Below are positions 12,284 through 30,222 of a stretch of 64,000 bases of DNA, one piece after another. Within the stretch, counting starts at the first letter, position 1, and every line of letters starts with the position of its first letter. The DNA comes from a candidate division NC10 bacterium CSP1-5. Its GTDB lineage: Bacteria > Methylomirabilota > Methylomirabilia > Methylomirabilales > CSP1-5. Where the stretch lies: assembly GCA_001443495.1 (NCBI GenBank), contig LDXR01000013.1, positions 1 through 64,000 on the forward strand. Reading direction: 5' to 3'. The position numbers and the translations under genes are program-made. Below the pieces are notes generated by a model that worked only from the letters and a program-made list of their open reading frames with translations, did no database searches and was not told where the DNA came from.

Positions 12284-14077
12284 CTACACCGCGCACTCAC
12301 CCGCCCCGGTCTTGACCTGGAAGACCTCCTCCTCCCCCCAGTCCTGGAACCCGTCCGGCGCCTCGTCGTAGGTGGGGAGTTCCGTAAATCCGGCCAGGAG
12401 CGCCGCCACTTGATCGAATCCGAATCGATCCAGAAAGGCCTGCAGCGTCTCGCTGCTCGAGCGATGGGCCTTGTAGGTGTCGAGGATCCGGTCGATCGCC
12501 CCCGGAATGTTCTTTGATGGAACCCGCAGGGTCGGCTTTCCATGGCGGGCGCTGCCGTCCCCCCATTGCCCCCCGAGGAGCATCTGGTAGGTCGGCGCCT
12601 GGCGCCCGCCGAATTTCCTGGAACCGCCGTAAAACCCGATAGTCGCGATGTGGTGTTGGCCGCACGAATTCGGGCAGCCCGAAATCTTGATCCGCCCGCC
12701 CACCTCGTTGGCGAGGTCCGGGTGCTTCTCCTCGATCATCCGGGCGATGGCGACCGCGAGCCCCCGCGATGAGGTAATCCCCAGTTGGCACGTGTCTGCC
12801 CCAGGACAGGCTGTCACATCAATCAAACGGTCGCCGCCGCTTCGCGCCAGGTCCACACGGCCCAGGACCCGGTACAATGCCGCCAGCGCACCGTCGGGAA
12901 TCCATCGGAGGAGGAAGTTTTGCTGGTTCGTGATCCGGACCGTGCCGTCACCAAACTCGCGGGCGCAGAAGGCCAGCACGCGAAGCTGTAAGGGTGTGAA
13001 GTCGCCGAGCTCCAGGCGGACCGTCACCATCACGTAGCCCGGTTGCTTCTGGGGCCGGACATTACTCCGCCGCCACAACTGGTACGCGGGATCCAGCAGA
13101 TCTGGGGTGCGGTTCAGGGAGCGGTCCCGGGAGGGAGGACCTTCTTCCCGGACTACGATGGGCGGAATCTTTCCGCCCATCGTCACCTTGAGACTCGTCC
13201 GCTCCTTGAAGACTTGGGCCCGGAACTTCTCCAGCCCAAATTCCGCCATGACGAACTTCATCCGGGCACGGCTCCTGTTCTCCCGGTTGCCAAACCGATC
13301 AAACACCCTGACAATGGCCCCCACGGTGGCCAACAGCTCGTCCGCCGGCGTAAACTCTTCGAGCAGCTGGGCCTGGTGGGGGACCGGACCGAGCCCCCCG
13401 GCCACCATCACTTTAAACCCTCGGTGGCTGACGCCATTATCTTGGTGCAGGACCGCCCGGCCACCGATATCGTGAATGGCCGTAATGCCCTCGTCGTCCG
13501 GGCATCCTGAGAAGGCGATCTTGAACTTCCGGGGAAGGTTCTGGTTTATCGGGTTCCGCAAGAGGTATCGGGCGACGGCCTCGGCGTAGGGCGTGACGTC
13601 GAAGACCTCAGACGGGCAGACCCCGGAGCACGCCCCCGCGGTGACGTTGCGCACGGTATTCCCGCAGGCCTCGCGCGTGGTGATGCCCACCTTTTCCAGC
13701 GCCTGCATGAACTCCGGTGCCTCGGCCAGCTTCAGGAAATGAAACTGGATGTTCTGGCGGGTCGTGACATGCCCAATCTTGCGGGGGGTCCGCTGGGCGA
13801 GATCCGCCAGGACATCCAGCTGCTCGGCGGTCAACCCTCCCCAGGGGATCTTGATGCGGAACATCTGTTCCCCTTGCTGGCGTTGGCCGTAGACACCGTG
13901 CTGGAGGCGAAAGCGCTGAAACTCTTGCTCCGAAATCTGCTTTCGCCGGAACCGCTGGACGAATTCATCAAAAGTATCGATCTCCTCCTGCTGGGCAAAG
14001 GACGGACGCACGGCGAGCGGCGCTCCGTCCTGGAGTACGGTCAACTGCCTCTTCGTCTGGTGCTCTACCTGTTGCAT
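12284..14077 (-). CDS. Siroheme sulfite reductase (nitrite/sulfite reductase family)
   Basis: A 597-residue six-electron reductase with the duplicated siroheme domain architecture. The first half has RIKIPWGGLTAEQLDVLADL, THQ-type TTRQNIQFH and NTVRNVTAGACSGVCPSE. The second half carries the [4Fe-4S]-siroheme ligands as CPGADTCQLG and GCPNSCGQHH, both near residues 450-510. Neighbouring sat, cysH, hemD and SUMT argue for sulfite rather than nitrite. The electron donor is probably ferredoxin. The ATG at 14077 has AGGAGG seven bases upstream; the reading frame extends further but lacks support. Confidence 0.92.
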   Translation of the reverse strand: MQQVEHQTKRQLTVLQDGAPLAVRPSFAQQEEIDTFDEFVQRFRRKQISEQEFQRFRLQHGVYGQRQQGEQMFRIKIPWGGLTAEQLDVLADLAQRTPRKIGHVTTRQNIQFHFLKLAEAPEFMQALEKVGITTREACGNTVRNVTAGACSGVCPSEVFDVTPYAEAVARYLLRNPINQNLPRKFKIAFSGCPDDEGITAIHDIGGRAVLHQDNGVSHRGFKVMVAGGLGPVPHQAQLLEEFTPADELLATVGAIVRVFDRFGNRENRSRARMKFVMAEFGLEKFRAQVFKERTSLKVTMGGKIPPIVVREEGPPSRDRSLNRTPDLLDPAYQLWRRSNVRPQKQPGYVMVTVRLELGDFTPLQLRVLAFCAREFGDGTVRITNQQNFLLRWIPDGALAALYRVLGRVDLARSGGDRLIDVTACPGADTCQLGITSSRGLAVAIARMIEEKHPDLANEVGGRIKISGCPNSCGQHHIATIGFYGGSRKFGGRQAPTYQMLLGGQWGDGSARHGKPTLRVPSKNIPGAIDRILDTYKAHRSSSETLQAFLDRFGFDQVAALLAGFTELPTYDEAPDGFQDWGEEEVFQVKTGAGECAV

Positions 14078-14218
14078 TTCTTTTCCTCCTACCGGTCCCT
14101 TCTGGTTTCCCCGTTTCCTCTCACCAAGTGGCACGCGATCGCCCATGCCCTTGAGCCTCATCGGTAGACTTTCTTCTCCAACCGCCACCGACTTTTCGTT
14201 TTCGATCTCCAATGCTCC

Positions 14219-14998
14219 TTAAACAAAATATTTGGCGATGGTGATGGCGCCGAGAAGACTCACCACGCCACCAAGAAACATTCGTAGGCGCATCGGAGAA
14301 AGCCCGTTTGAAGTCCGGACGCCGAGCAATACCCCGCCCGCCCCGGCCAGGAGGAGGGGAAGCAAGACCTCCCACCTGAGTAGATCTAACCAAAGCAGAT
14401 ACGAAATGCTGGCGGTACTCGCCACCAGCGTTCGACACATCAGGGAGGAACCGATGACAGTGTGGGGGGGGATGCCTGTCCAGATAAGCAATGTGACTCC
14501 GATGGGACCCCAACCGGTACCGAAGGCACCCGCCGATACCCCGGCCACCGCCCCAATGCCAAAAATGGTAGGACGCCGCTCTTGCCATTTCACGTCCTTG
14601 AGATGAGTGGAGTTCTCCGGACGAATACCATTCTGCCTGATGAGGGTGAGAAGGCCCATGATGAGGGTGGTCACGCCGATCAAGAGTTTCAGGATCGGTC
14701 CTGGCAGGGTGGGGCTTACCAGGCTCCCCACGAAGGCCCCTCCCACACCTCCCAGGAGGAGTGCCGGTAGGCCAGCCACCCGAGAGGGGTCATAGCGCCG
14801 ATGGGCCATCCCTCCGAAGAGGCTGAGGAGGATGGAAGCCAGGAGGCTTGAGGTAATCGCGACTAGCGGCTCGACCCCCAGCAGGATCAGCAGCGGCACA
14901 CTCAAGGCCCCCCAACCCGCGGCAGAGGTTCCCATGACCCAGCCTGAGGCCAGCCCTACGACCGCGATTCCCAACACCGAAGCCATCATCACTTGCAT
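14219..14998 (-). CDS. TauE/SafE (TSUP) family permease
   Basis: A 259-residue membrane protein with about eight helices and two homologous halves: GTSAAGWGALSVPLLILLG, and later GTGWGPIGVTLLIW. TSUP proteins move sulfite, thiosulfate, sulfonates or related anions across the inner membrane. Its place between the sulfite reductase and rhodanese genes suggests an assimilable sulfur anion or sulfite balancing, but the direction of transport cannot be told from sequence. It lies 14 bp after the upstream rhodanese gene. Confidence 0.85.
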   Translation of the reverse strand: MQVMMASVLGIAVVGLASGWVMGTSAAGWGALSVPLLILLGVEPLVAITSSLLASILLSLFGGMAHRRYDPSRVAGLPALLLGGVGGAFVGSLVSPTLPGPILKLLIGVTTLIMGLLTLIRQNGIRPENSTHLKDVKWQERRPTIFGIGAVAGVSAGAFGTGWGPIGVTLLIWTGIPPHTVIGSSLMCRTLVASTASISYLLWLDLLRWEVLLPLLLAGAGGVLLGVRTSNGLSPMRLRMFLGGVVSLLGAITIAKYFV

Positions 14999-16636: not shown

Positions 16637-17032
16637 TTAACTAATCACCACCTCTTCCTCCGCAATCTGCCCATCGGTGATCCGAAAGGCCCGAATGACC
16701 GGCGCGTGCCGGTCATGCAGCGAGACGATGAAGTAGAGCGCTTCGGGATAAAAGGCGAGCTCCACGTCGGTCTTGGACGGAAAGGCCTCGGTGTGGGTGT
16801 GGGAGTGGTATATGCCGACCAGCTCCCATCCCTTCCGATCCATCTCCCGCATAACACGGATCTGGTCCTTTGGGTCGAGGTAGTATCGGTACGGACTCTT
16901 CTCGGTACTGTCGCACCGAAAGACCTCCAGGACGCTGCCGTTTTTCCCGGCGAGGAGCCCACAACACTCATTCGGGACCTCGGCGCGTGCGTGCTTGACA
17001 ATCTCATCGGCAAACCGCTTCGGCAACAGCAT
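16637..17032 (-). CDS. JAMM/MPN+ metallopeptidase (Mec-like)
   Basis: A 131-residue stand-alone JAB1/MPN/Mov34 zinc peptidase. The full JAMM motif is visible: Glu22, then HSHTHTEAFPSKTD with His76, His78, Ser86 and Asp89. In Mycobacterium the homologue Mec hydrolyses the CysO-cysteine adduct to release cysteine and regenerate CysO. Here it lies 36 bp downstream of a gene in which CysO and CysM are fused, so it is a good candidate both for releasing cysteine and for cutting after the internal Gly-Gly. Confidence 0.9.
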   Translation of the reverse strand: MLLPKRFADEIVKHARAEVPNECCGLLAGKNGSVLEVFRCDSTEKSPYRYYLDPKDQIRVMREMDRKGWELVGIYHSHTHTEAFPSKTDVELAFYPEALYFIVSLHDRHAPVIRAFRITDGQIAEEEVVIS

Positions 17033-17068
17033 CTCGGCCCTCAGTCCTCAGCGCTCGTCCCTCGCCTG

Positions 17069-18331
17069 CTACCACCAGATGTGACTGTAGACGTCCTCCC
17101 CCAGGTCGGGGAGCTCTTTGGCCCACACCCCTAAGCTCACATACTTCCACCCCCCGTCGGCGAGGAGGCAGACGATATTCCCTTTGTTCATCTTGTGGGC
17201 CATTCGGATGGCAGCGTGAAGAACCGCTCCCGACGAGACGCCGGCAAAGATTCCTTCCTTGCGTGTCAGATCCCTGGTGAGAGCAAAGGCGCAGCGGGAA
17301 TCGACCAAGAACTTCCCGTCCAGCAGGCTCAGATCCAGGATCGGAGGGATGAACCCTTCGTCCAAGCTGCGGAGTCCCTGAACAAGATCACCCGGGTGGG
17401 GCTCTACGGCGATCACCTGGGTCTTGGGATTGACCTCCTTGAGCCGCCGCCCCACGCCCATCAAGGTCCCGCCGGTCCCCAGCCCCGCCACGAAAGCATC
17501 CACGTGGGGCAGCGCTGCAAGGATCTCGGCGCCCGTGGTCTCGTAATGCGCGCGGACGTTCTCCGCATTGCCGTACTGATACGGCATATACCAGTCCCGG
17601 TTCAGGGTGGCCATCTTCTTGGCCACCTCGATTGCTCCGTTCGTCCCCCGGCGGGCGTCGGAGTAAATGATCTCCGCGCCGTACAGCTCCAGGAGCTGCC
17701 GCCGCTCCACCGTGATGTTCTCCGGCACGACCACTTTGACCTTGTACCCCTTGCGCCGACCGATCATGGCCAGGGAGATTCCGGTATTGCCGCTGGTCGG
17801 CTCGATAATCGTCTGACCCGGTGTGAGCAGTCGGCGTCGCTCGGCCTCTTCGACCATGTACTTGGCAATGCGGTCCTTCAGGCTGCCCGTCGGGTTGTAG
17901 AACTCGAGCTTGCAGAAGATCCGGACCGACGACTTGGGGCTGATGCGTTGCACCTCTACCAAGGGCGTGTTGCCGATGGCATCCACGGTATCGGCGGCCG
18001 GTCGCGGGCCACCCGCCGTCTTTCGGCCACCGATTGCCTTCTTTCTCGTCGGCACCCTTACCCCCCCTGCGACGGCAGGAAGGATCGAGATGACGTCCCC
18101 TTCCTGTACTTCCGTGTCGAGAAACTTGAGGAATCGGATATCCTCATCGTTCCGGTAGATGTTCACGAACCGGTGAAGCTCCTTGCCATCCAGCAACCGG
18201 TCCCGAAGGCCCGGATGGGCTTTGTCCAGGTTCTCGAGGATATCCCGGACCGTCATCCCCTCAACAACGACCGTCTTGGCTCCCCCGGTGTGCCTGCGGA
18301 AGATCTGAGGAACCCGAACCTGAACGCTCAT
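17069..18331 (-). CDS. CysO-CysM fusion: ubiquitin-like sulfur carrier joined to cysteine synthase
   Basis: A 420-residue fusion. Residues 1-90 are a ThiS/MoaD/CysO beta-grasp carrier (SVQVRVPQIF, then GDVISILPAVAGG), ending in Gly89-Gly90 like free CysO. A basic linker (VRVPTRKKAIGGRKTAGG, residues 91-108) leads into a PLP cysteine synthase of the CysM type with NPTGSLKDRIAKYM (Lys152) and EPTSGNTGISLAM. In Mycobacterium CysM adds O-phosphoserine-derived aminoacrylate to CysO thiocarboxylate. The carrier tail must be free to be charged, so cleavage after Gly90 seems required. Start ATG at 18331 with GGGAG upstream. Confidence 0.9.
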   Translation of the reverse strand: MSVQVRVPQIFRRHTGGAKTVVVEGMTVRDILENLDKAHPGLRDRLLDGKELHRFVNIYRNDEDIRFLKFLDTEVQEGDVISILPAVAGGVRVPTRKKAIGGRKTAGGPRPAADTVDAIGNTPLVEVQRISPKSSVRIFCKLEFYNPTGSLKDRIAKYMVEEAERRRLLTPGQTIIEPTSGNTGISLAMIGRRKGYKVKVVVPENITVERRQLLELYGAEIIYSDARRGTNGAIEVAKKMATLNRDWYMPYQYGNAENVRAHYETTGAEILAALPHVDAFVAGLGTGGTLMGVGRRLKEVNPKTQVIAVEPHPGDLVQGLRSLDEGFIPPILDLSLLDGKFLVDSRCAFALTRDLTRKEGIFAGVSSGAVLHAAIRMAHKMNKGNIVCLLADGGWKYVSLGVWAKELPDLGEDVYSHIWW

Positions 18332-18418
18332 TGTTCTCCCTGCATCTCGGGACGTTCCGCCTCGGCTGAACAATGGCCCCTTCTACGAAATTCCATCCCA
18401 CAAATCAACGAACGCGCA

Positions 18419-19417
18419 TTACGGCCTGACGGCGATCCCGTGGGGATCTCCGCCCAGCGAGATCTTGGTCACCACCTTGCGACCCGGGACATCGATGACC
18501 GAGACCCCGGGCTCCTTCCCCGTCGTCATGGCGGGGTCCCCCGTGACCGCCTCCCCCCGAAGGGTGACGAACGCCCGCTTGCCGTCCGGCGAGAGATCGA
18601 TGATGTCGGTCTTATCCCCAACATTGGCAATGGTGTCCACAATCTTGCCCGTTGCCATGTCCACGATTGAGACATCGCCCGACTGGCGGTTCGGAACCAG
18701 GGCGAACTTGGCATCCGGCGTCAGGACGGCCCCATGTGCCTCCTTCCCCGACACCACATCGATAAGAATCTTTCCGGTGGCGATCTCCACCAGCGTGTAC
18801 TTGTTCTCGCCACCGCCCGTGACCAGCACCTTGCCTCCGTCGGGACTCATCACGAGCCCCATGGCTCCCTTCCCGATGTTGGGGATGCTGCCCACGACCT
18901 TCCGATTCTTGACATCGATGACAGAGAGGGTGGCATCGCCCCCATTGCTCACGTAGGCCGTCTGCCCATCCTTGGAGAAGACGGCCATGGCCGGGTTCTT
19001 GCCGACCTCGATGGTGGCGAGGCGCTCTAGGCTCTTCGCGTCGTAGAGCATAACGGTATGCTCACCCGGGTTGCTCGCCAGAAGCAATTTGCCGTCAGGT
19101 GACACGGCCACGTGGTGGCACGTCTTCCCGCCCGGGACTGCCTTCACTACCTTCTTCGTGACGGCGTCGATCACGGTAAAGTCGTTCGAGCCGACGCTGG
19201 CGATATATGCGAGCTTGAAATCGGGACTGAAGGTGACATTGTGCGGCTTACTGGCTACCGGGATCTCGGCGATGATTTTGAGGGACTGCCCGTCGAGGAT
19301 CTGAACTTTGTTCTCACTTTGGTTCGTGACCCACACTTCGTAGGCACCTGCGTGAGACGACAGAGCTAAAAGCAGAACAAGCACCGCACCCCCGAAGACC
19401 CATCGGCCGCTTGCCAC
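18419..19417 (-). CDS. Exported YVTN beta-propeller protein
   Basis: A 332-residue protein with a signal peptide (VASGRWVFGG, hydrophobic core, SSHAGA-YE) followed by repeated YVTN/NHL-type blades such as YEVWVTNQSENKVQILD, VTFSPDFKLAYIASVG, VAVSPDGKLLLASN and VVDGG-like loops, making a seven-bladed propeller. No heme or metal motif is visible. The start is GTG at 19417, preceded by AAGGAGG; an upstream extension lacks support. Role unknown; in this operon it may scaffold or bind periplasmic sulfur proteins. Confidence 0.85.
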   Translation of the reverse strand: MASGRWVFGGAVLVLLLALSSHAGAYEVWVTNQSENKVQILDGQSLKIIAEIPVASKPHNVTFSPDFKLAYIASVGSNDFTVIDAVTKKVVKAVPGGKTCHHVAVSPDGKLLLASNPGEHTVMLYDAKSLERLATIEVGKNPAMAVFSKDGQTAYVSNGGDATLSVIDVKNRKVVGSIPNIGKGAMGLVMSPDGGKVLVTGGGENKYTLVEIATGKILIDVVSGKEAHGAVLTPDAKFALVPNRQSGDVSIVDMATGKIVDTIANVGDKTDIIDLSPDGKRAFVTLRGEAVTGDPAMTTGKEPGVSVIDVPGRKVVTKISLGGDPHGIAVRP

Positions 19418-19461
19418 CCCAGTGCCTCCTTTCTCCTGTCCGGACGCCAATGAACGTTTGC

Positions 19462-19725
19462 TCAACTCACGCCCCCCTTTTCGATCTCGATCTCCCACAG
19501 GGCGTCGCCCACCTTCTCCACCCGAACGACCCTGTGGCCGTGTTCGGCAGCCCACCGTGGGATGTTCTCCGCCGCCAGGGGGTAGTCGGAAATCACGATC
19601 AGGACGTCCCCCGGCTGAAGCTTCTTCACCTCCCGTTGCGCCATTACCAAGGGGTAGGGGCAGATCTCCCCTTGCGTGTCGAGGCGGTGCACCCTCCGTT
19701 CTTGGGTTTGCTTTGGCGATCCCAA
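19462..19725 (-). CDS. tusA: TusA-family sulfur carrier
   Basis: An 87-residue SirA/TusA-like protein with the family motif LDTQGEICPYPLVMAQREVK, Cys22 being the sulfur-carrying residue, and the typical VLIVISDYPLAAENIPRWA middle. It relays persulfide sulfur from rhodaneses to acceptors. YeeE and TusA genes commonly travel together in thiosulfate-uptake loci. It lies 9 bp after the exported rhodanese gene, so the two are co-transcribed. Confidence 0.93.
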   Translation of the reverse strand: MGSPKQTQERRVHRLDTQGEICPYPLVMAQREVKKLQPGDVLIVISDYPLAAENIPRWAAEHGHRVVRVEKVGDALWEIEIEKGGVS

Positions 19726-19734
19726 TGTCTCTCT

Positions 19735-20697
19735 CTATCGCTCCAGGGGAAGGTCCGGCCGATTGCCCCAGTCGATCCAGGAGCCGTCGTAGTTGCGGAC
19801 CTTCTCATATCCGAGGAGTCGCGCCACGAAGTAGTCATGGGCCGCCCGCGCCCCGGTCCGACAGTAGGTCACGATCTCCCGGTCCTTCCTCGCACCGGCT
19901 TGCTCGAACATCTTTCCGAGTTCCTCGGCGCTCTTGAAGGTCTTATCCTCGGGGTTGATAGTACTCGTCCAGTCAATCGACACAGCCCCGGGGATTCTCC
20001 CCCCTCGCTTGATGTCAGGATCCTCCGCCTTCCCCGGATGCGTCCGCTTCCCCTCGTATTCGAGTCGCGACCGCGCATCGACGAGGCAGACACCCGGGTT
20101 CTTGACGTTGTCCCTGACCCACTCGGCGGTGGCGATCAGATTGGGATTGGGCCGGGCGATGAATTTCTTGGGCGTGATCTTCGGTTCCTCGGTACTTAGG
20201 GGTCGGCCCTCCTGGGTCCACTTCGTCAGGCCCCCGTTCAGAACCGCGACATTCTTGTGTCCAAAGAATTCAAGAACGAAGAAGAGGCGTGCGGACCAGA
20301 GCCCGCCGCTGTCGTCATAGGCAACCACCCGCGTGTTCTCATCGATCCCTATCTTACTGAAGAGGGCCTCCGCCTTGGCCTGGTCTACGGGGAGACCCTT
20401 CTGGTTACTCGTCACATCGTCGATCTCCTGCCAGTTCAGGTAGACCGCTCCCGGGATATGCCCCTTCGCATACTCCTGGTACCCCTCGGCCCCTTTGTTC
20501 CGCAGGTCCACCAGACGCATGCTGGCATCCTCCAGATGAGCGGCCACCTCCTGGGTGTCAACCAGCAGGCGAGCATTGGGATATCCCGACTTTTTCGCCT
20601 GCTGCCCCCAGCACTGTGCCCAGACCACCGTCGCCCCCATGAGCACTACTAGCAGTCCCCCGAGCACCCTGCCGCCTATCCTCAGTGTCTTGTGCAT
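19735..20697 (-). CDS. Exported two-domain sulfurtransferase
   Basis: A 320-residue tandem rhodanese with a cleavable signal (MHKTLRIGGRVLGG, hydrophobic core, TVVWAQC), so periplasmic or envelope-bound. The active site is CRTGARAAHDYF near residue 280, and DYDGSWIDWGN-like residues close the domain. I chose the ATG at 20697, nine bases after CGGAGG, over two earlier Met codons. It could process thiosulfate or sulfane sulfur outside the membrane before YeeE import. Confidence 0.9.
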   Translation of the reverse strand: MHKTLRIGGRVLGGLLVVLMGATVVWAQCWGQQAKKSGYPNARLLVDTQEVAAHLEDASMRLVDLRNKGAEGYQEYAKGHIPGAVYLNWQEIDDVTSNQKGLPVDQAKAEALFSKIGIDENTRVVAYDDSGGLWSARLFFVLEFFGHKNVAVLNGGLTKWTQEGRPLSTEEPKITPKKFIARPNPNLIATAEWVRDNVKNPGVCLVDARSRLEYEGKRTHPGKAEDPDIKRGGRIPGAVSIDWTSTINPEDKTFKSAEELGKMFEQAGARKDREIVTYCRTGARAAHDYFVARLLGYEKVRNYDGSWIDWGNRPDLPLER

Positions 20698-20727
20698 GAC
20701 GGTCATCCTCCGTATGGCCGCAGCCAC

Positions 20728-21723
20728 CTAGCTGCGAAAGAGCACCGCTGCCGCGGACCAGACGCCCGCAACGATCCCGACGGAAGCGGTGATGCTGGTG
20801 AGCGACAGGGTCGAAACCCCGGTCAGGCTGTGCCCCACATTACACCCACCGGCGATCGCCGCGCCAATGCCCATCACCACCCCGCCCCCGAGGGCTTGCA
20901 GCGTCCGCTGGGGACCGGGGGCGCGCCACTTGAACTCCCCGTGGGCTCGGGCAGCAACGTACGCCCCCAGCGGGATGCCGAGCCCCATGAAACTCGCCCA
21001 GTTCAGGGCGCTCATCTGTCCCAGGGCGAGGAACCGCACGTAGGTATAGGCCGGCTCCGTAACGGAGAGGCCAAAGGAGCGCCCCGTCAGCGCCGAGAGG
21101 GGCCACGCGACGACGCCGATGATGCCAATCGCTACCCCCGTGACGAGCCAGCCCCATCCCCCCTGATAGGTCTTCCGATGCCCACGCCACAGCCACAATC
21201 CCCCGACGGCGATAAGGACGGCGATGACGACCCATGGACTGACCCCGACGAGGTTTGCCACCGTGGGCAACTCGCCGGCCGGCTCGATCGTGACATTCCG
21301 CAGGCGCTCCTGGACGGGGGCGACGATGCCGAAATTGGTCATCAGTATCCCGAACCCGAATCCGACAAAGCTGATCCATGATCCGACCATCCCCTCACCG
21401 GACCGGTAAGAGATCCCGGTCGTTCACCCCCCGGAGAGCGCCATTCCCCATCCGAAGATAAAGCCCCCCGCCAGCGCGGCCTGCCACCAGAAAGGAGCGA
21501 TGGCGGGGGAAAGCCATCCCTGCTGTACAAGGAGGTGCACACCCACCATCTGGATCAGCACCGCCAACACGTACGCCCGGAGCAACGTCTGGTCCCGGAT
21601 CAAAAAGATGTCCCGGAAGGCGGTGTTCATGCAGAAACGGCCGCGCTGCAGGGCGTAGCCGAAAGCGAAACCGACCGGAACACCTAAGAGGGCTGCCTTC
21701 ACCATCCACGGGACTCCTGTCAC
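20728..21723 (-). CDS. YeeE/YedE (TsuA-like) thiosulfate transporter, predicted selenoprotein
   Basis: One 331-codon gene read through an in-frame TGA at 21424-21426 (codon 100). Without readthrough it looks like two genes of 99 and 220 residues. The joined frame gives MALSGG-U-TTGISYRSGEG, and TGA falls exactly on the Cys of the conserved SGGC...YRxGEG motif. The other two functional Cys positions of TsuA-like transporters are present (GRFCMNT, Cys31; AGGCNVGH, Cys294). About nine helices are predicted. TsuA/YeeE imports thiosulfate by passing it between these thiols. A SECIS-like hairpin follows the UGA, and selD is in this window. Confidence 0.85.
21384..21422 (-). promoter_or_regulatory. 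SECIS-like hairpin after the UGA of yeeE
   Basis: It starts 2 nt after the UGA. CGACC pairs with GGUCG as a lower stem, and CUUACC pairs with GGUGAG as an upper stem closed by the loop GGUCC. The loop GU, recognised by SelB in bacterial SECIS elements, lies about 21-22 nt after the UGA. This is close to the E. coli fdhF arrangement, which also has a GGUC apical loop. Reading was by eye; no folding energy was computed. Confidence 0.7.
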
Positions 21724-21804
21724 GGTTCATGGTGATGGTTCATGGTTGGTTTTGGGCTTCATTCACGTCTCCATGAACGCTGAACCATGAACTATGCACG
21801 ATCA
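21724..21804. repeat. Heptanucleotide repeats, inverted arrangement
   Basis: Tandem and near-tandem units of GGTTCAT/GGTTGGT on the left and ATGAAC-type units (the reverse complement) on the right fill the gap between the yeeE and CysO-MoeB genes. The two halves could pair as a hairpin. The same 7-mers recur at 27076-27192, 28487-28521 and 28615-28642. Confidence 0.6.
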
Positions 21805-22896
21805 TCAGTTCACCGCCTGCGCGGGGGGCACCCCGCAGAACTCTTGGTAGTCGATGAGATCTGTAATCGTCGGATGATCGCCGCAGACCGGACACTCCGG
21901 ATCTCGCCGGATCTTCACCTGACGGAATTCGAGCGTCAGGGCATCGAAGAAGACCAGGCGGTTGATCAGCGGTTCCCCTGTGCCCAGGATCAGCTTGATC
22001 GCCTCGAGCGCCTGCAGGCTCCCGATGATTCCGCACAGCACGCCGAGGACTCCCGCCTCCGCGCAACTCGGCACGAGCCCCGGCGGGGGCGGGGCGGGAT
22101 ACAGGCAACGGTAACACCCCTTCCCGGGGAAAAAGACCGTCACCTGCCCCTCGAAACGGAAGATGCTGCCATCCACCATCGGCTTCTTGAGGAAGTAGCA
22201 CGCATCGTTCAGCAAATACCGGGTCGGAAAGTTGTCGCAGCCATTGACGATGACGTCGTAGCCGCCGATGATCTCTTTCACGTTCTCTGAGGAGAGCTGG
22301 GCCTCATAGGGCTCCACCTTCACACCCGGATTGATGTCCGCGATCGTGTCTACTGCCGATAACACCTTGGGCCGCCCCACGTCATGGGTGTGGTGCAGGA
22401 TCTGCCGCTGCAGGTTGCTGAGGTCCACCCGGTCGAAATCGACGATCCCGAGCCTGCCCACGCCGGCGGCGGCCAGGTAGAGGGCGGCAGGACAGCCCAG
22501 CCCCCCCGCGCCAACGAGAAGGGCGCTGCTGTTGAGGAGCCTGCGTTGCCCCTTACCGCCGACCTCGGGGAGGATGATGTGACGGCTGTACCGCTTGATC
22601 TGCTCCTCGGTAAAGGGAATCGCCCCGCCCGCGATGGCCGGGATCAGGGCGACCTCATCCCCGTCCGCCAGCACGGTCTCCTTGCCCTCGAGGTCCTCAA
22701 CGGCGATGTCGTTCACATAGATGTTAATATGCCGATGGATCTCTCCCTGCTCATCGAGGACTCGCTCGCGGATCCCCGGATACGCACTCTCGAGGGCCTC
22801 GACGAGACGAACGACGGTCTTGCCCTCTGCCTCCACGGTGGCCTGGTTTCGGGTCAGGGACCGAAAGGGCGTCGGGATATACACCTTGACCCCCAT
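21805..22896 (-). CDS. CysO/MoaD-MoeB fusion: carrier joined to its E1-like activating enzyme
   Basis: A 363-residue fusion. Residues 1-91 are a ThiS/MoaD/CysO beta-grasp domain (GVKVYIPTPFRSLT, then GDEVALIPAIAGG, Gly90-Gly91). Directly after, residues 94-363 form a ThiF/MoeB-type adenylating enzyme: FTEEQIKRYSRHIILPEVGG, ATP loop GAGGLGCPAALYLA, DLSNLQRQILH, a Zn-binding pair CYRCLYP/CPVCGD, and CAEAGVLG. It lacks the C-terminal rhodanese domain of MoeZ, but rhodaneses lie in the same operon. It probably adenylates the CysO tail for thiocarboxylation. The ATG at 22896 has AAAGGAG upstream. Confidence 0.92.
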   Translation of the reverse strand: MGVKVYIPTPFRSLTRNQATVEAEGKTVVRLVEALESAYPGIRERVLDEQGEIHRHINIYVNDIAVEDLEGKETVLADGDEVALIPAIAGGAIPFTEEQIKRYSRHIILPEVGGKGQRRLLNSSALLVGAGGLGCPAALYLAAAGVGRLGIVDFDRVDLSNLQRQILHHTHDVGRPKVLSAVDTIADINPGVKVEPYEAQLSSENVKEIIGGYDVIVNGCDNFPTRYLLNDACYFLKKPMVDGSIFRFEGQVTVFFPGKGCYRCLYPAPPPPGLVPSCAEAGVLGVLCGIIGSLQALEAIKLILGTGEPLINRLVFFDALTLEFRQVKIRRDPECPVCGDHPTITDLIDYQEFCGVPPAQAVN

Positions 22897-22918
22897 GAAC
22901 GGACTCCTTTCCTCCCTC

Positions 22919-23845
22919 CTAGTACGGTACACTGAGATACCGCTCGCCCGTATCGGGCAGGATCGTCACGACGACCTTCCCCTTCTCAAGGTCGCGGGCC
23001 ACTTTCACCGCGGCAAAGACGTTGGCCCCGGCCGAGACGCCGACCAGGAGCCCCTCCTCCCGGTTCAGACGAGCGGTCATTTTGAGCGCGTCCTCGTCGC
23101 TCACGGCGATGATCTGATCGAGAACCTCCATGTTGAGGACCGTCGGGATGAAGCTGGCGCCGATCCCCTGAATGGCGTGGGGCCGGGCCTTCCCTCCCTG
23201 GAGGACGGGCGACTTGGCCGGTTCAACGGCGATCACCTTGATCCCCGGAATCTTCGCCTTGAGAACCTCCCCGACCCCGGTGATGGTTCCACCGGTCCCT
23301 ACCCCAGCGACAAAGGCGTCGATCGCTGTTCCCATCACATCCAGGATCTCCTGGGCGGTTGTCTGCCGATGGATCTCTGGATTGGCAGGATTGTTGAACT
23401 GCTGGGGCATGAAATAATCAGGATTCTCACCGCAGAGCTCCTCGGCGGCGAAGACCGCCCCCGTCATGCCCTCGATCGCAGGCGTCAAGATCACCTCCGC
23501 GCCGAACCGCTGCAGCAGCGTTCTCCGCTCGAGGCTCATATCGTCCGGCATCGTCAGGATCAGCCGGTACCCCTTCACCGCCGCCACCATGGCCAGCCCG
23601 ATCCCGGTATTTCCGGAGGTCGGTTCCACGATGGTCGCCCCGGGTTTGAGCCTTCCCCGCTGCTCCGCCTCCTCAACCATGGACCAGGCAATGCGGTCCT
23701 TGACGCTTCCGGCCGGATTCAAAGACTCCATCTTTGCCACGATGGTCGCCCCGTTTCGCGGGGAGATCTTGGGAAGTTCCACCATGGGAGTGTTCCCGAT
23801 GAGCTCTATTGCATTTTTTGCCAGGCGAGGAATTCGTGATCCCAT
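22919..23845 (-). CDS. cysK: Cysteine synthase A (O-acetylserine sulfhydrylase)
   Basis: A 308-residue PLP enzyme that makes cysteine from O-acetylserine and sulfide produced by the reductase of this operon. Motifs: NAIELIGNTPMVEL, the PLP lysine in SLNPAGSVKDRIAW, EPTSGNTGIGLAMVAA, the PLP phosphate loop GTGGTITGVGE, and the tail TILPDTGERYLS. It is distinct from the CysM-type enzyme at 17069, so two cysteine routes are encoded. The start is the ATG at 23845; the longer frame upstream overlaps a repeat and the Rrf2 gene. Confidence 0.95.
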   Translation of the reverse strand: MGSRIPRLAKNAIELIGNTPMVELPKISPRNGATIVAKMESLNPAGSVKDRIAWSMVEEAEQRGRLKPGATIVEPTSGNTGIGLAMVAAVKGYRLILTMPDDMSLERRTLLQRFGAEVILTPAIEGMTGAVFAAEELCGENPDYFMPQQFNNPANPEIHRQTTAQEILDVMGTAIDAFVAGVGTGGTITGVGEVLKAKIPGIKVIAVEPAKSPVLQGGKARPHAIQGIGASFIPTVLNMEVLDQIIAVSDEDALKMTARLNREEGLLVGVSAGANVFAAVKVARDLEKGKVVVTILPDTGERYLSVPY

Positions 23846-23857
23846 CTTCCGCTCACC

Positions 23858-23939
23858 GTTTACCGACGACCGATGACCGTAAGAAACGGAGTCGCGACTG
23901 TGGTCCCGGGCGGTCGTCGGTGGTCGGTCATCGGTCATC
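23858..23939. repeat. Heptanucleotide repeats between Rrf2 and cysK genes
   Basis: GTTTACC-GACGACC-GATGACC at 23858-23878 is mirrored by GGTCGTC-GGTGGTC-GGTCATC-GGTCATC at 23912-23939. The arms are complementary and could form a hairpin in the operon leader between its first two genes. The same GGTCATC/GGTCGTC units appear at 27165-27192 and around the kelch gene start (34274-34287). Confidence 0.65.
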
Positions 23940-23943
23940 CAGA

Positions 23944-24393
23944 CTAGATGTGATAGCTCGTACTCCTGGGCGCAATCTTGAGCCGCGCGCGGCGGCAGAT
24001 CTCTTCGAAGGTGACGCTGTCCAGGATGTGGGCAACGGCATCCCTCACTTCGACCAAGACGCCTTGAAAGCCGCACCTTTTTTCCGCGGGGCACTTTTCG
24101 CGGCTGGAGGGATCGACACAGAAGATTGGGGCCTGGGTGCCCTCCATCAGCCGGATGATCTCTCCCAACGTGATCTGATGAGGGGGTTTAGCGAGGGAGT
24201 ACCCCCCTTTAACGCCTCGCTTGCTCTCGAGATACCCAGCACGCTTCAGAATCAGCAGCAGCTGTTCCAGGTACCGCACGGGGATCTCCTGGCGCTCTGC
24301 GATCGCGTCAATCTGCAGAGGGCCCCTATCATAATGCATGGAGAGCTCTTGGAGGGCCCTTGCCGCGTAATCGCCTTTCGTCGAAATCCTCAT
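23944..24393 (-). CDS. Rrf2-family transcriptional regulator
   Basis: A 149-residue winged-helix regulator of the Rrf2/IscR/CymR family. The start is MRISTKGDYAARALQELS, the recognition helix region is IPVRYLEQLLLILKRAGYL, and the wing is KRGVKGGYSLAKPP. Three cysteines (FCVDPSS..., EKCPAEKRCGF) near residues 92-107 are spaced as in IscR-like Fe-S sensors. Sitting first before cysK, it probably controls the sulfur operon and itself in response to Fe-S or cysteine status, like IscR or CymR. The ATG at 24393 fits the family; the ORF extends upstream. Confidence 0.9.
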   Translation of the reverse strand: MRISTKGDYAARALQELSMHYDRGPLQIDAIAERQEIPVRYLEQLLLILKRAGYLESKRGVKGGYSLAKPPHQITLGEIIRLMEGTQAPIFCVDPSSREKCPAEKRCGFQGVLVEVRDAVAHILDSVTFEEICRRARLKIAPRSTSYHI

Positions 24394-24414
24394 CGATACC
24401 GTCCGGTGTGGTAT

Positions 24415-24433
24415 CTCGATAAAGTCAATCGAG
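24415..24433. promoter_or_regulatory. Palindromic operator candidate before the Rrf2 gene
   Basis: CTCGATAAAGTCAATCGAG has perfect 6-base arms (CTCGAT/ATCGAG) around a 7-base spacer. It lies between the predicted -10 and the start codon of the Rrf2 gene, where an autoregulator would block transcription. Confidence 0.5.
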
Positions 24434-24440
24434 TTACTCG

Positions 24441-24469
24441 TGTTTATCAAATCCCGTACCCCTTGTCAA
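24441..24469 (-). promoter_or_regulatory. Sigma-70-like promoter for the sulfur operon
   Basis: On the minus strand TTGACA (24464-24469) is followed after 17 bases by TAAACA (24441-24446), about 48 bp before the Rrf2 start codon. The -35 is perfect and the -10 is weak, as expected for a regulated promoter. Confidence 0.5.
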
Positions 24470-29169: not shown

Positions 29170-30222
29170 ATGGCAGAACCCGAGGAGACGATCCGGCTTA
29201 CGGCCCTTTCTCATGGGGCCGGTTGAGCCTGTAAGATCAGTCCCGTGGACCTGGCTCAGGTGCTGAGTCAGCTACCAACCTTCACCGATCCCCGCATCCT
29301 CGTGGGGCCGGAGACCTGTGATGATGCCGCGGTCTACCAGCTGACCGAGGATCTGGCCGTCGTCCAGTCGGTGGATTACATCACCCCCGTCGTGGACGAT
29401 CCCTATACCTGCGGTGCGGTGGCCGCCGCCAACTCCTTGAGCGACATCTACGCCATGGGAGCACGGCCGATCTTTGCGCTGAACCTCGTCGGCTTTCCGG
29501 TCGGCAAGCTTCCGCTGAAGGTTCTCAGTCTCATTCTTCAGGGGGGGGCCGACAAGGTGAGAGAGGCCGGCGCATCCATCGTCGGGGGGCACAGCATCGA
29601 TGATCCAGAGCCGAAGTACGGGCTCGTCGTCACCGGCCTCGTGCATCCGAAGAAGATTGTCACGAATGCCCGCGCCCGGGTCGGGGATGACCTCATCCTC
29701 ACCAAGCCGCTCGGGATCGGCATCATCACCACCGGAATCAAGCGAGAGCAGGTGGGTCGAGAGACGGTAGATCAGGTCGTCCAGGTCATGACGACGTTGA
29801 ACAGGGCGGCCGCCGAGGCGATGGTAGAGGTGGGGGCGAACGCGTGCACGGATGTCACCGGCTTTGGTCTCCTCGGGCACCTGCATGAAATGACCTCTGG
29901 CAGCGGTGTCGGCGCCCGCATCTCGCTCAAGGCCGTCCCGGTCCTCCCCGAGGCGTGGAGACTCGTCAAGGAGGGGATCTGCCCCGGCGGGACCAAGCGG
30001 AACCGGCAGGCGCTCGAGGGGCAGGTCAGGTGGGCGCCGGAGATCAGCGAAGACGCCCAGCTGGTCCTCTGCGACGCCCAGACCTCCGGCGGGCTTTTGA
30101 TCGCGGTGCCCAAAGACAAGAGTGCGCGCCTCGTCAAGCATCTGCAAGCCGGCAAGACACCCGCCGCCGCCCGGGTCGGCGAGATCGTTGCGGATGGCGG
30201 TCACATCGACGTGATTCCATAG
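29170..30222 (+). CDS. selD: Selenide, water dikinase (selenophosphate synthetase), selenocysteine form
   Basis: Makes selenophosphate, the selenium donor for Sec-tRNA. Naive gene calling starts at GTG 29245, but the true frame begins at ATG 29170 (AGGAG upstream). It reads IRLTALSHGAG-U-ACKISP through TGA at 29224-29226, codon 19. This is the conserved catalytic Cys/Sec site (E. coli Cys17, in HGAGCGCK). Downstream motifs: ETCDDAAVYQL, TPVVDDPYTCGAVAAANSL, DIYAMGARPIFALN. About 350 residues. It shows that this organism uses UGA as Sec. Confidence 0.93.
29226..29256 (+). promoter_or_regulatory. SECIS-like hairpin after the UGA of selD
   Basis: GUCC (14-17 nt after the UGA) pairs with GGAC around the loop CGU, so a GU sits in the apical loop at about 19-20 nt. 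An outer AGCC/GGCU pairing starts at the UGA itself. Position and loop agree with the hairpin predicted in the yeeE gene. Confidence 0.55.

Follow-up and report, generated by a model that had tools for sequence, protein, structure and literature searches.

A predicted selenocysteine at the middle relay position in a TsuA-like transporter from Methylomirabilota

Sulfur importers and selenoproteins of the YeeE/YedE family

The closest described system to the transporter considered here is TsuA/YeeE of Spirochaeta thermophila, in which a TusA-like partner receives the thiosulfate (PMC11073785); one of its structures, 6LEP, is labelled by its depositors "inactive mutant C91A". In the sulfur importer SoxT1B each of three Cys-to-Ser changes is inactivating, and the choice between hydrogen bonding and direct sulfur transfer in the relay is treated as unsettled (PMC11582611). 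YeeE/YedE (PF04143) also appears in the accessible parts of two inventories of predicted selenoproteins, with the motif GUxSG and one selenocysteine (Sec) in WP_012471001.1 (PMC9312934, PMC13188914). A first-pass annotation of the present locus had not placed this transporter among the established selenoprotein families, yet as a predicted family it was already listed there, and the gene described below is a new, well-supported member of that already predicted kind. The accessible main text of the two original papers cited by the inventories does not name YeeE/YedE, nor does the deep-Sep paper (PMC12013277) mention it.

An in-frame UGA at the position of TsuA Cys91

The gene lies on the reverse strand of the window, which here means the whole 64,000-nt stretch analysed, and is the only PF04143 gene found in a 2.77-Mb, 99.7% complete genome (Table 1). 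All sequences used were genome assemblies, mostly metagenome-derived. Read with TGA as Sec, the frame has 331 sense codons and a single TGA, codon 100. As the first-pass annotation had it, this TGA joins a 99-codon and a 220-codon frame with no change of frame, and the PF04143 match runs continuously across it (residues 27-322; 266 bits against a gathering score of 27). The true start is probably the ATG at 21705-21703 (codon 7), six codons downstream of the listed GTG: residue 7 is where the alignments of nearly all relatives begin, and an AGGAG precedes that ATG by 8 nt. Sec would then be residue 94.

Table 1. Features of the window bearing on the predicted selenoprotein transporter
Feature	Position	Strand	Evidence
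Sulfite/nitrite reductase	12284..14212	-	PF01077, PF03460
TauE/SafE sulfite exporter	14219..14998	-	PF01925
JAMM/JAB peptidase (Mec+-like)	16637..17032	-	PF14464
ThiS-CysK/CysM-like fusion	17069..18373	-	PF02597 + PF00291
TusA/TsuB-like sulfur carrier, CPYP motif, likely acceptor	19462..19725	-	PF01206; nearest NCBIfam model TsuB/YeeD, below cut-off
Two-domain rhodanese, signal-like N-terminus (by eye)	19735..20727	-	PF00581
TsuA/YeeE-like transporter gene with predicted Sec	20728..21723	-	PF04143 5.4e-79; 6LEO sequence match 3.3e-52; fold TM 0.85
Cys294 codon (TsuA Cys293), putative outer relay residue	20842..20844	-	Alignment to 6LEO
SECIS-like hairpin, GGUC apical loop; apical stem 21394-21410	21384..21422	-	Folding and comparison of loci
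UGA codon predicted to be read as Sec, residue 100 of listed frame (TsuA Cys91)	21424..21426	-	Alignment
Cys31 codon (TsuA Cys22), putative inner relay residue	21631..21633	-	Alignment to 6LEO
ThiS-MoeB fusion	21805..22932	-	PF02597 + PF00899
Cysteine synthase CysK	22919..24094	-	TIGR01139 over cut-off
Rrf2-type regulator, operon head	23944..24450	-	PF02082
selD, UGA at 29224-29226, motif GAGUACK	29170..30222	+	TIGR00476 410.7 bits

Alignment to 6LEO sets Cys31, Sec100 and Cys294 on TsuA Cys22, Cys91 and Cys293, so that the relay given in the annotation, and its choice of the other two cysteines, proved correct (PMC11073785). The AF2 model (mean pLDDT 78.6, pTM 0.81), which is weak at residues 101-104 and 296-304, beside two of the relay residues, superimposes on 6LEO as tabulated and also matches 6LEP, the structure mutated at the site that Sec occupies here.

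Across 29 aligned loci, the codon in the Sec column is TGA in 13 (the window gene and 12 others) and TGC or TGT in 16, with TAA or TAG in none; the replaced residue is indeed the Cys of SGGCxxG...YRxGEG, as proposed from the letters. Because TGA in those 12 further loci, TGC/TGT in 16 and the lack of TAA/TAG all fall on one column, the in-frame TGA at this Cys is far beyond chance. The only other in-frame stop in the aligned loci is a TGA at the first Cys of L032, which belongs to a different subfamily. Within the genus, dN/dS is 0.14-0.18 before the TGA versus 0.13-0.14 after it, and the gene is under equal purifying selection on either side of it. Were the TGA instead a genuine stop, a sequencing error or a sign of decay, the outcome would be products of 99 and 220 residues, akin to PmpB/PmpA halves, or a dead gene. 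An ATG 11 codons past the TGA opens the 220-codon frame, and split YeeE genes do exist (PMC11582611), but in orthologues with Cys, which occupy the same operon, the frame is unbroken, the 12 other loci never show TAA or TAG, the stretch between the TGA and the downstream ATG is conserved, and selection persists downstream at the dN/dS given above; we reject this explanation as highly improbable.

The genome encodes tRNA-Sec (74 bits), SelB (379 bits) and SelA (600 bits), and selD within the window carries its own in-frame UGA, as had been noted. The doubts that the annotation raised against itself (absent machinery, decay of downstream halves in relatives, a misread base) were not borne out: selA, selB and tRNA-Sec are all present, the downstream halves in relatives are intact, and the TGA is repeated across independent genomes. 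An open frame alone could also reflect genome-wide reassignment of TGA to an amino acid. TGA is, however, the ordinary stop of genes in the same region (15014, 19462, 21805), is confined to the Cys column, and coexists with a complete Sec machinery, and we dismiss reassignment as having virtually no chance of being right. A survey of the phylum found selB in 83 of 95 genomes and tRNA-Sec in 79 of 95; therefore, Cys forms also occur in Sec-competent species. As a separate observation, longer and lower-scoring tRNA-Sec matches (54-58 bits, 98 nt) occur in one genus, mostly beside the regular tRNA-Sec gene (G020:C49:3626-3723, G022:C18:9326-9423, G024:C3:50105-50202 and G034:C9:2638-2735).

The SECIS-like hairpin with a GGUC loop described in the annotation was recovered 19 nt past the UGA, and the 50-nt stretch has a z of -2.8 against shuffles; Rfam scans returned no SECIS match. 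All six pairs of the apical stem, CUUACC/GGUGAG, are present in 10 of 12 Sec loci versus none of 15 Cys loci (Fisher 8e-6, uncorrected for kinship among loci). Among close relatives this difference lies mostly in synonymous third bases, and the encoded YRxGEG is nearly identical in Sec and Cys loci despite it. Over the 14 codons past the UGA, synonymous divergence is below that of the rest of the gene in the compared Sec pairs, and not in the Cys pair. Taken as comparisons of sequence, these data are strong support for a TsuA-like transporter with selenocysteine as its central relay residue.

A cysteine-synthesis operon and the candidate sulfur relay

The genes around the transporter follow the order Rrf2, CysK, ThiS-MoeB, YeeE, (rhodanese), TusA, (beta-propeller), (TusA), ThiS-CysK and JAMM, with sulfite reductase further on. 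This order is common to the Sec and Cys versions, the distant homologue L110 lying outside the operon, and TusA genes adjoin the transporter in relatives. In actinobacteria, CysO, MoeZ, CysM and Mec+ constitute a thiocarboxylate route to cysteine, which the genes of this operon resemble. We infer that the transporter supplies such a route with sulfur from thiosulfate or sulfane sulfur. As the surrounding cysteine-synthesis operon keeps one gene order with either version, Sec or Cys, an importer of one of these two sulfur sources that feeds TusA and thiocarboxylate carriers is the most likely assignment. A single operon of the window (16637-22932, reverse strand) also brings together two fusions, ThiS-MoeB and ThiS-CysK, and a JAMM peptidase; the fused ThiS carrier domains hold an internal GG that the peptidase might expose, possibly constituting a fused form of the thiocarboxylate cysteine route.

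We consider it very probable that the gene encodes a full-length TsuA/YeeE-like sulfur importer in which a Sec inserted by SelB and a SECIS element serves as the middle relay residue, feeding a TusA-type carrier and cysteine synthesis. The Sec coding, its position, the insertion machinery and the conserved operon are computational findings; the substrate and the direction of transport we infer. Under this proposal, SelB and the hairpin would insert Sec at codon 100 (94 from the likely ATG) of an inner-membrane protein with three relay residues in line. Thiosulfate, or sulfane sulfur delivered outside the cell, would pass from Cys294 (outer) through Sec100 (middle) to Cys31 (inner), as homology suggests, and homology together with gene context points to hand-over of the sulfur from Cys31 to the CPxP protein of TusA/TsuB type whose gene lies downstream. 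The next acceptors would most likely be ThiS-type thiocarboxylate carriers charged by MoeB and, judging from context, the CysK/CysM-like enzymes together with the JAMM peptidase would bring the sulfur into cysteine, while sulfite might be reduced or exported. A low-pKa, nucleophilic selenolate may speed the sulfur hand-over, a suggestion to which we give somewhat less than even weight.

The cargo could alternatively be zero-valent or sulfane sulfur rather than thiosulfate, supplied to the selenoprotein by the neighbouring exported rhodanese. The rhodanese gene, with its signal-like N-terminus, directly follows that of the transporter in most Sec operons, and SoxT1A cannot use thiosulfate (PMC11582611); against this, no rhodanese is present in several of the Sec operons (L100-L102) or in any of the six Cys operons examined, and the nearest solved relative imports thiosulfate. 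We regard exclusive use of such sulfur as rather unlikely. A selenium compound as cargo, which would make the selenoprotein a relative of the YedE selenium transporter, is suggested by selD, which the window carries at a distance of about 7.5 kb and two relatives also have near the gene, and by the role in Se transport proposed for YedE (PMC5322559). The operon, however, makes cysteine, selD stands on the opposite strand behind purine genes, and it was not found in the examined flanks of the operons of genus g6. The model scores also oppose this cargo, the window protein reaching 49 bits on TIGR04112 against a cut-off of 200. On the TsuA equivalog models NF052577 and NF041049 it reaches 240 against 400 and 214 against 645, so that by these scores it is TsuA-like and much nearer TsuA than selenium YedE, yet is not classed as TsuA. 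Selenium cargo is, in our judgement, improbable, and we reject it as first choice; selenosulfate in particular, raised as a substrate in the annotation, found no support in the analysis.

Sec at relay sites across the family and comparison with known systems

Sec occurs at the Cys91 site in five PF04143 lineages, namely the window type, a KGUATS type (L083, L085), a GGGUxSG type and the split LGFUPGT and GGYUPG types, and within our sample Cys forms are also found in three of the five. A 27-row tree holds at least four changes between Sec and Cys, with L019 (Cys) and L022 (Sec) as near neighbours; 84 PF04143 N-terminal halves (40 Sec and 44 Cys rows) give nine changes, five of them forced by well-supported branches. 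An exact-pattern scan of GTDB genomes, limited to that pattern, found no window type outside Methylomirabilota; those of its 54 matches that lacked PF04143 were discarded as chance. Hosts of the GGGUxSG type comprise Rokubacteria, Acidobacteria and several Bacilli. PF04143 proteins of a GMQLGGGUASG type with UGA were seen in halophilic or alkaliphilic Bacilli (Salsuginibacillus, Evansella, Halalkalibacterium) and in Acidobacteria (L122, L126, L133, L148, L149; L113, L117, L130, L134, L139, L142, L152). Another family of the class has a window-type Sec transporter (L086/L161, G094:C216) with its C-terminal half in another frame, through assembly error or frameshift.

UGA codons were also found at the other relay positions. 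A split transporter encoded by two neighbouring genes has UGA in both halves in two genomes, at L089 (G025:C163) and L090 (G008:C150); the Cys91 site lies in the motif LGFUPGT and the Cys293 site in ADGUTSGHG. The ADGUTSGHG half is likewise present in L087 (G007:C1), where the other half is lost at the contig end, and L091 (G046:C90) has one half with Sec and the other with Cys. At the Cys293 site of the split transporter, five genomes divide into three with TGA and two with Cys, and in all three of the former the UGA is followed by a hairpin of the type CGGGCUC-AGUGG-(G/A)GCCUG, which is broken in both Cys forms; the neighbours of the split pair share no clear context. In L084 (3238-4173, forward strand, PF04143), UGA takes the place of the Cys22 codon, the Cys91 site has Cys and the Cys293 site holds Asp. 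Sec at the Cys22 position is tentative: besides the Asp, this one example has a weak hairpin, and its genome shows 7% contamination. In the accessible literature we found no mention of five PF04143 lineages that share Sec at the Cys91 site, no split transporter with Sec in both halves or Sec at the Cys293 site, and no account of Sec coinciding with an essential relay residue, of stem loss in Cys forms or of the operon.

We tentatively suggest that Sec has replaced the relay cysteines of YeeE/YedE repeatedly and at more than one position: Cys91 in several subfamilies, Cys293 together with Cys91 in the split pair, and perhaps Cys22 once, in L084. Such natural substitution might argue for nucleophilic or covalent (Se-S) hand-over rather than S-H...S hydrogen bonds, since selenols are mostly deprotonated at neutral pH and donate hydrogen bonds poorly. 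On this chemical argument, a working selenolate at the Cys91 site would lower the likelihood of a pure hydrogen-bond relay. Probably few transporters carry selenocysteine along the route of their substrate. In this protein it would occupy the very site at which a change of Cys to alanine inactivates the solved homologue and at which close same-operon orthologues have Cys, and the Sec and Cys orthologues form natural matched pairs for the question of whether thiosulfate passes YeeE by hydrogen bonds or by covalent sulfur exchange. The locus would also tie selenium supply to sulfur assimilation in Methylomirabilota.

Compared with the published YeeE/YedE selenoprotein, the window protein shares the Pfam family, a single Sec and a near-identical motif (GUTTG, with GUASG/GUGSG in same-operon orthologues), a likeness of motif and not of alignment; the accessible parts of the inventories list that protein without function, SECIS or context. 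The SoxT sulfur importers (PMC11582611) belong to the same family and have three essential cysteines, but they serve sulfur oxidation or signalling, whereas the window gene lies in a cysteine-synthesis operon. The putative selenium transporter YedE (TIGR04112; PMC5322559) is a distant PF04143 relative linked to selenium genes, for which the proposed link to selenium is the cargo, while for the window protein it is the residue. PmpA and PmpB are split halves of the family with one relay residue each, and split relatives with Sec in both halves occur elsewhere in the phylum, unlike the window gene, which is full length. The protein is most similar to TsuA/YeeE of S. thermophila (6LEO, 6LEP, 8K1R) in its fold, its three relay residues and its TusA-like partner gene, which here is encoded alongside as a TsuB-like partner; at 34-35% identity, TsuA has Cys91 where the window protein is predicted to have Sec.
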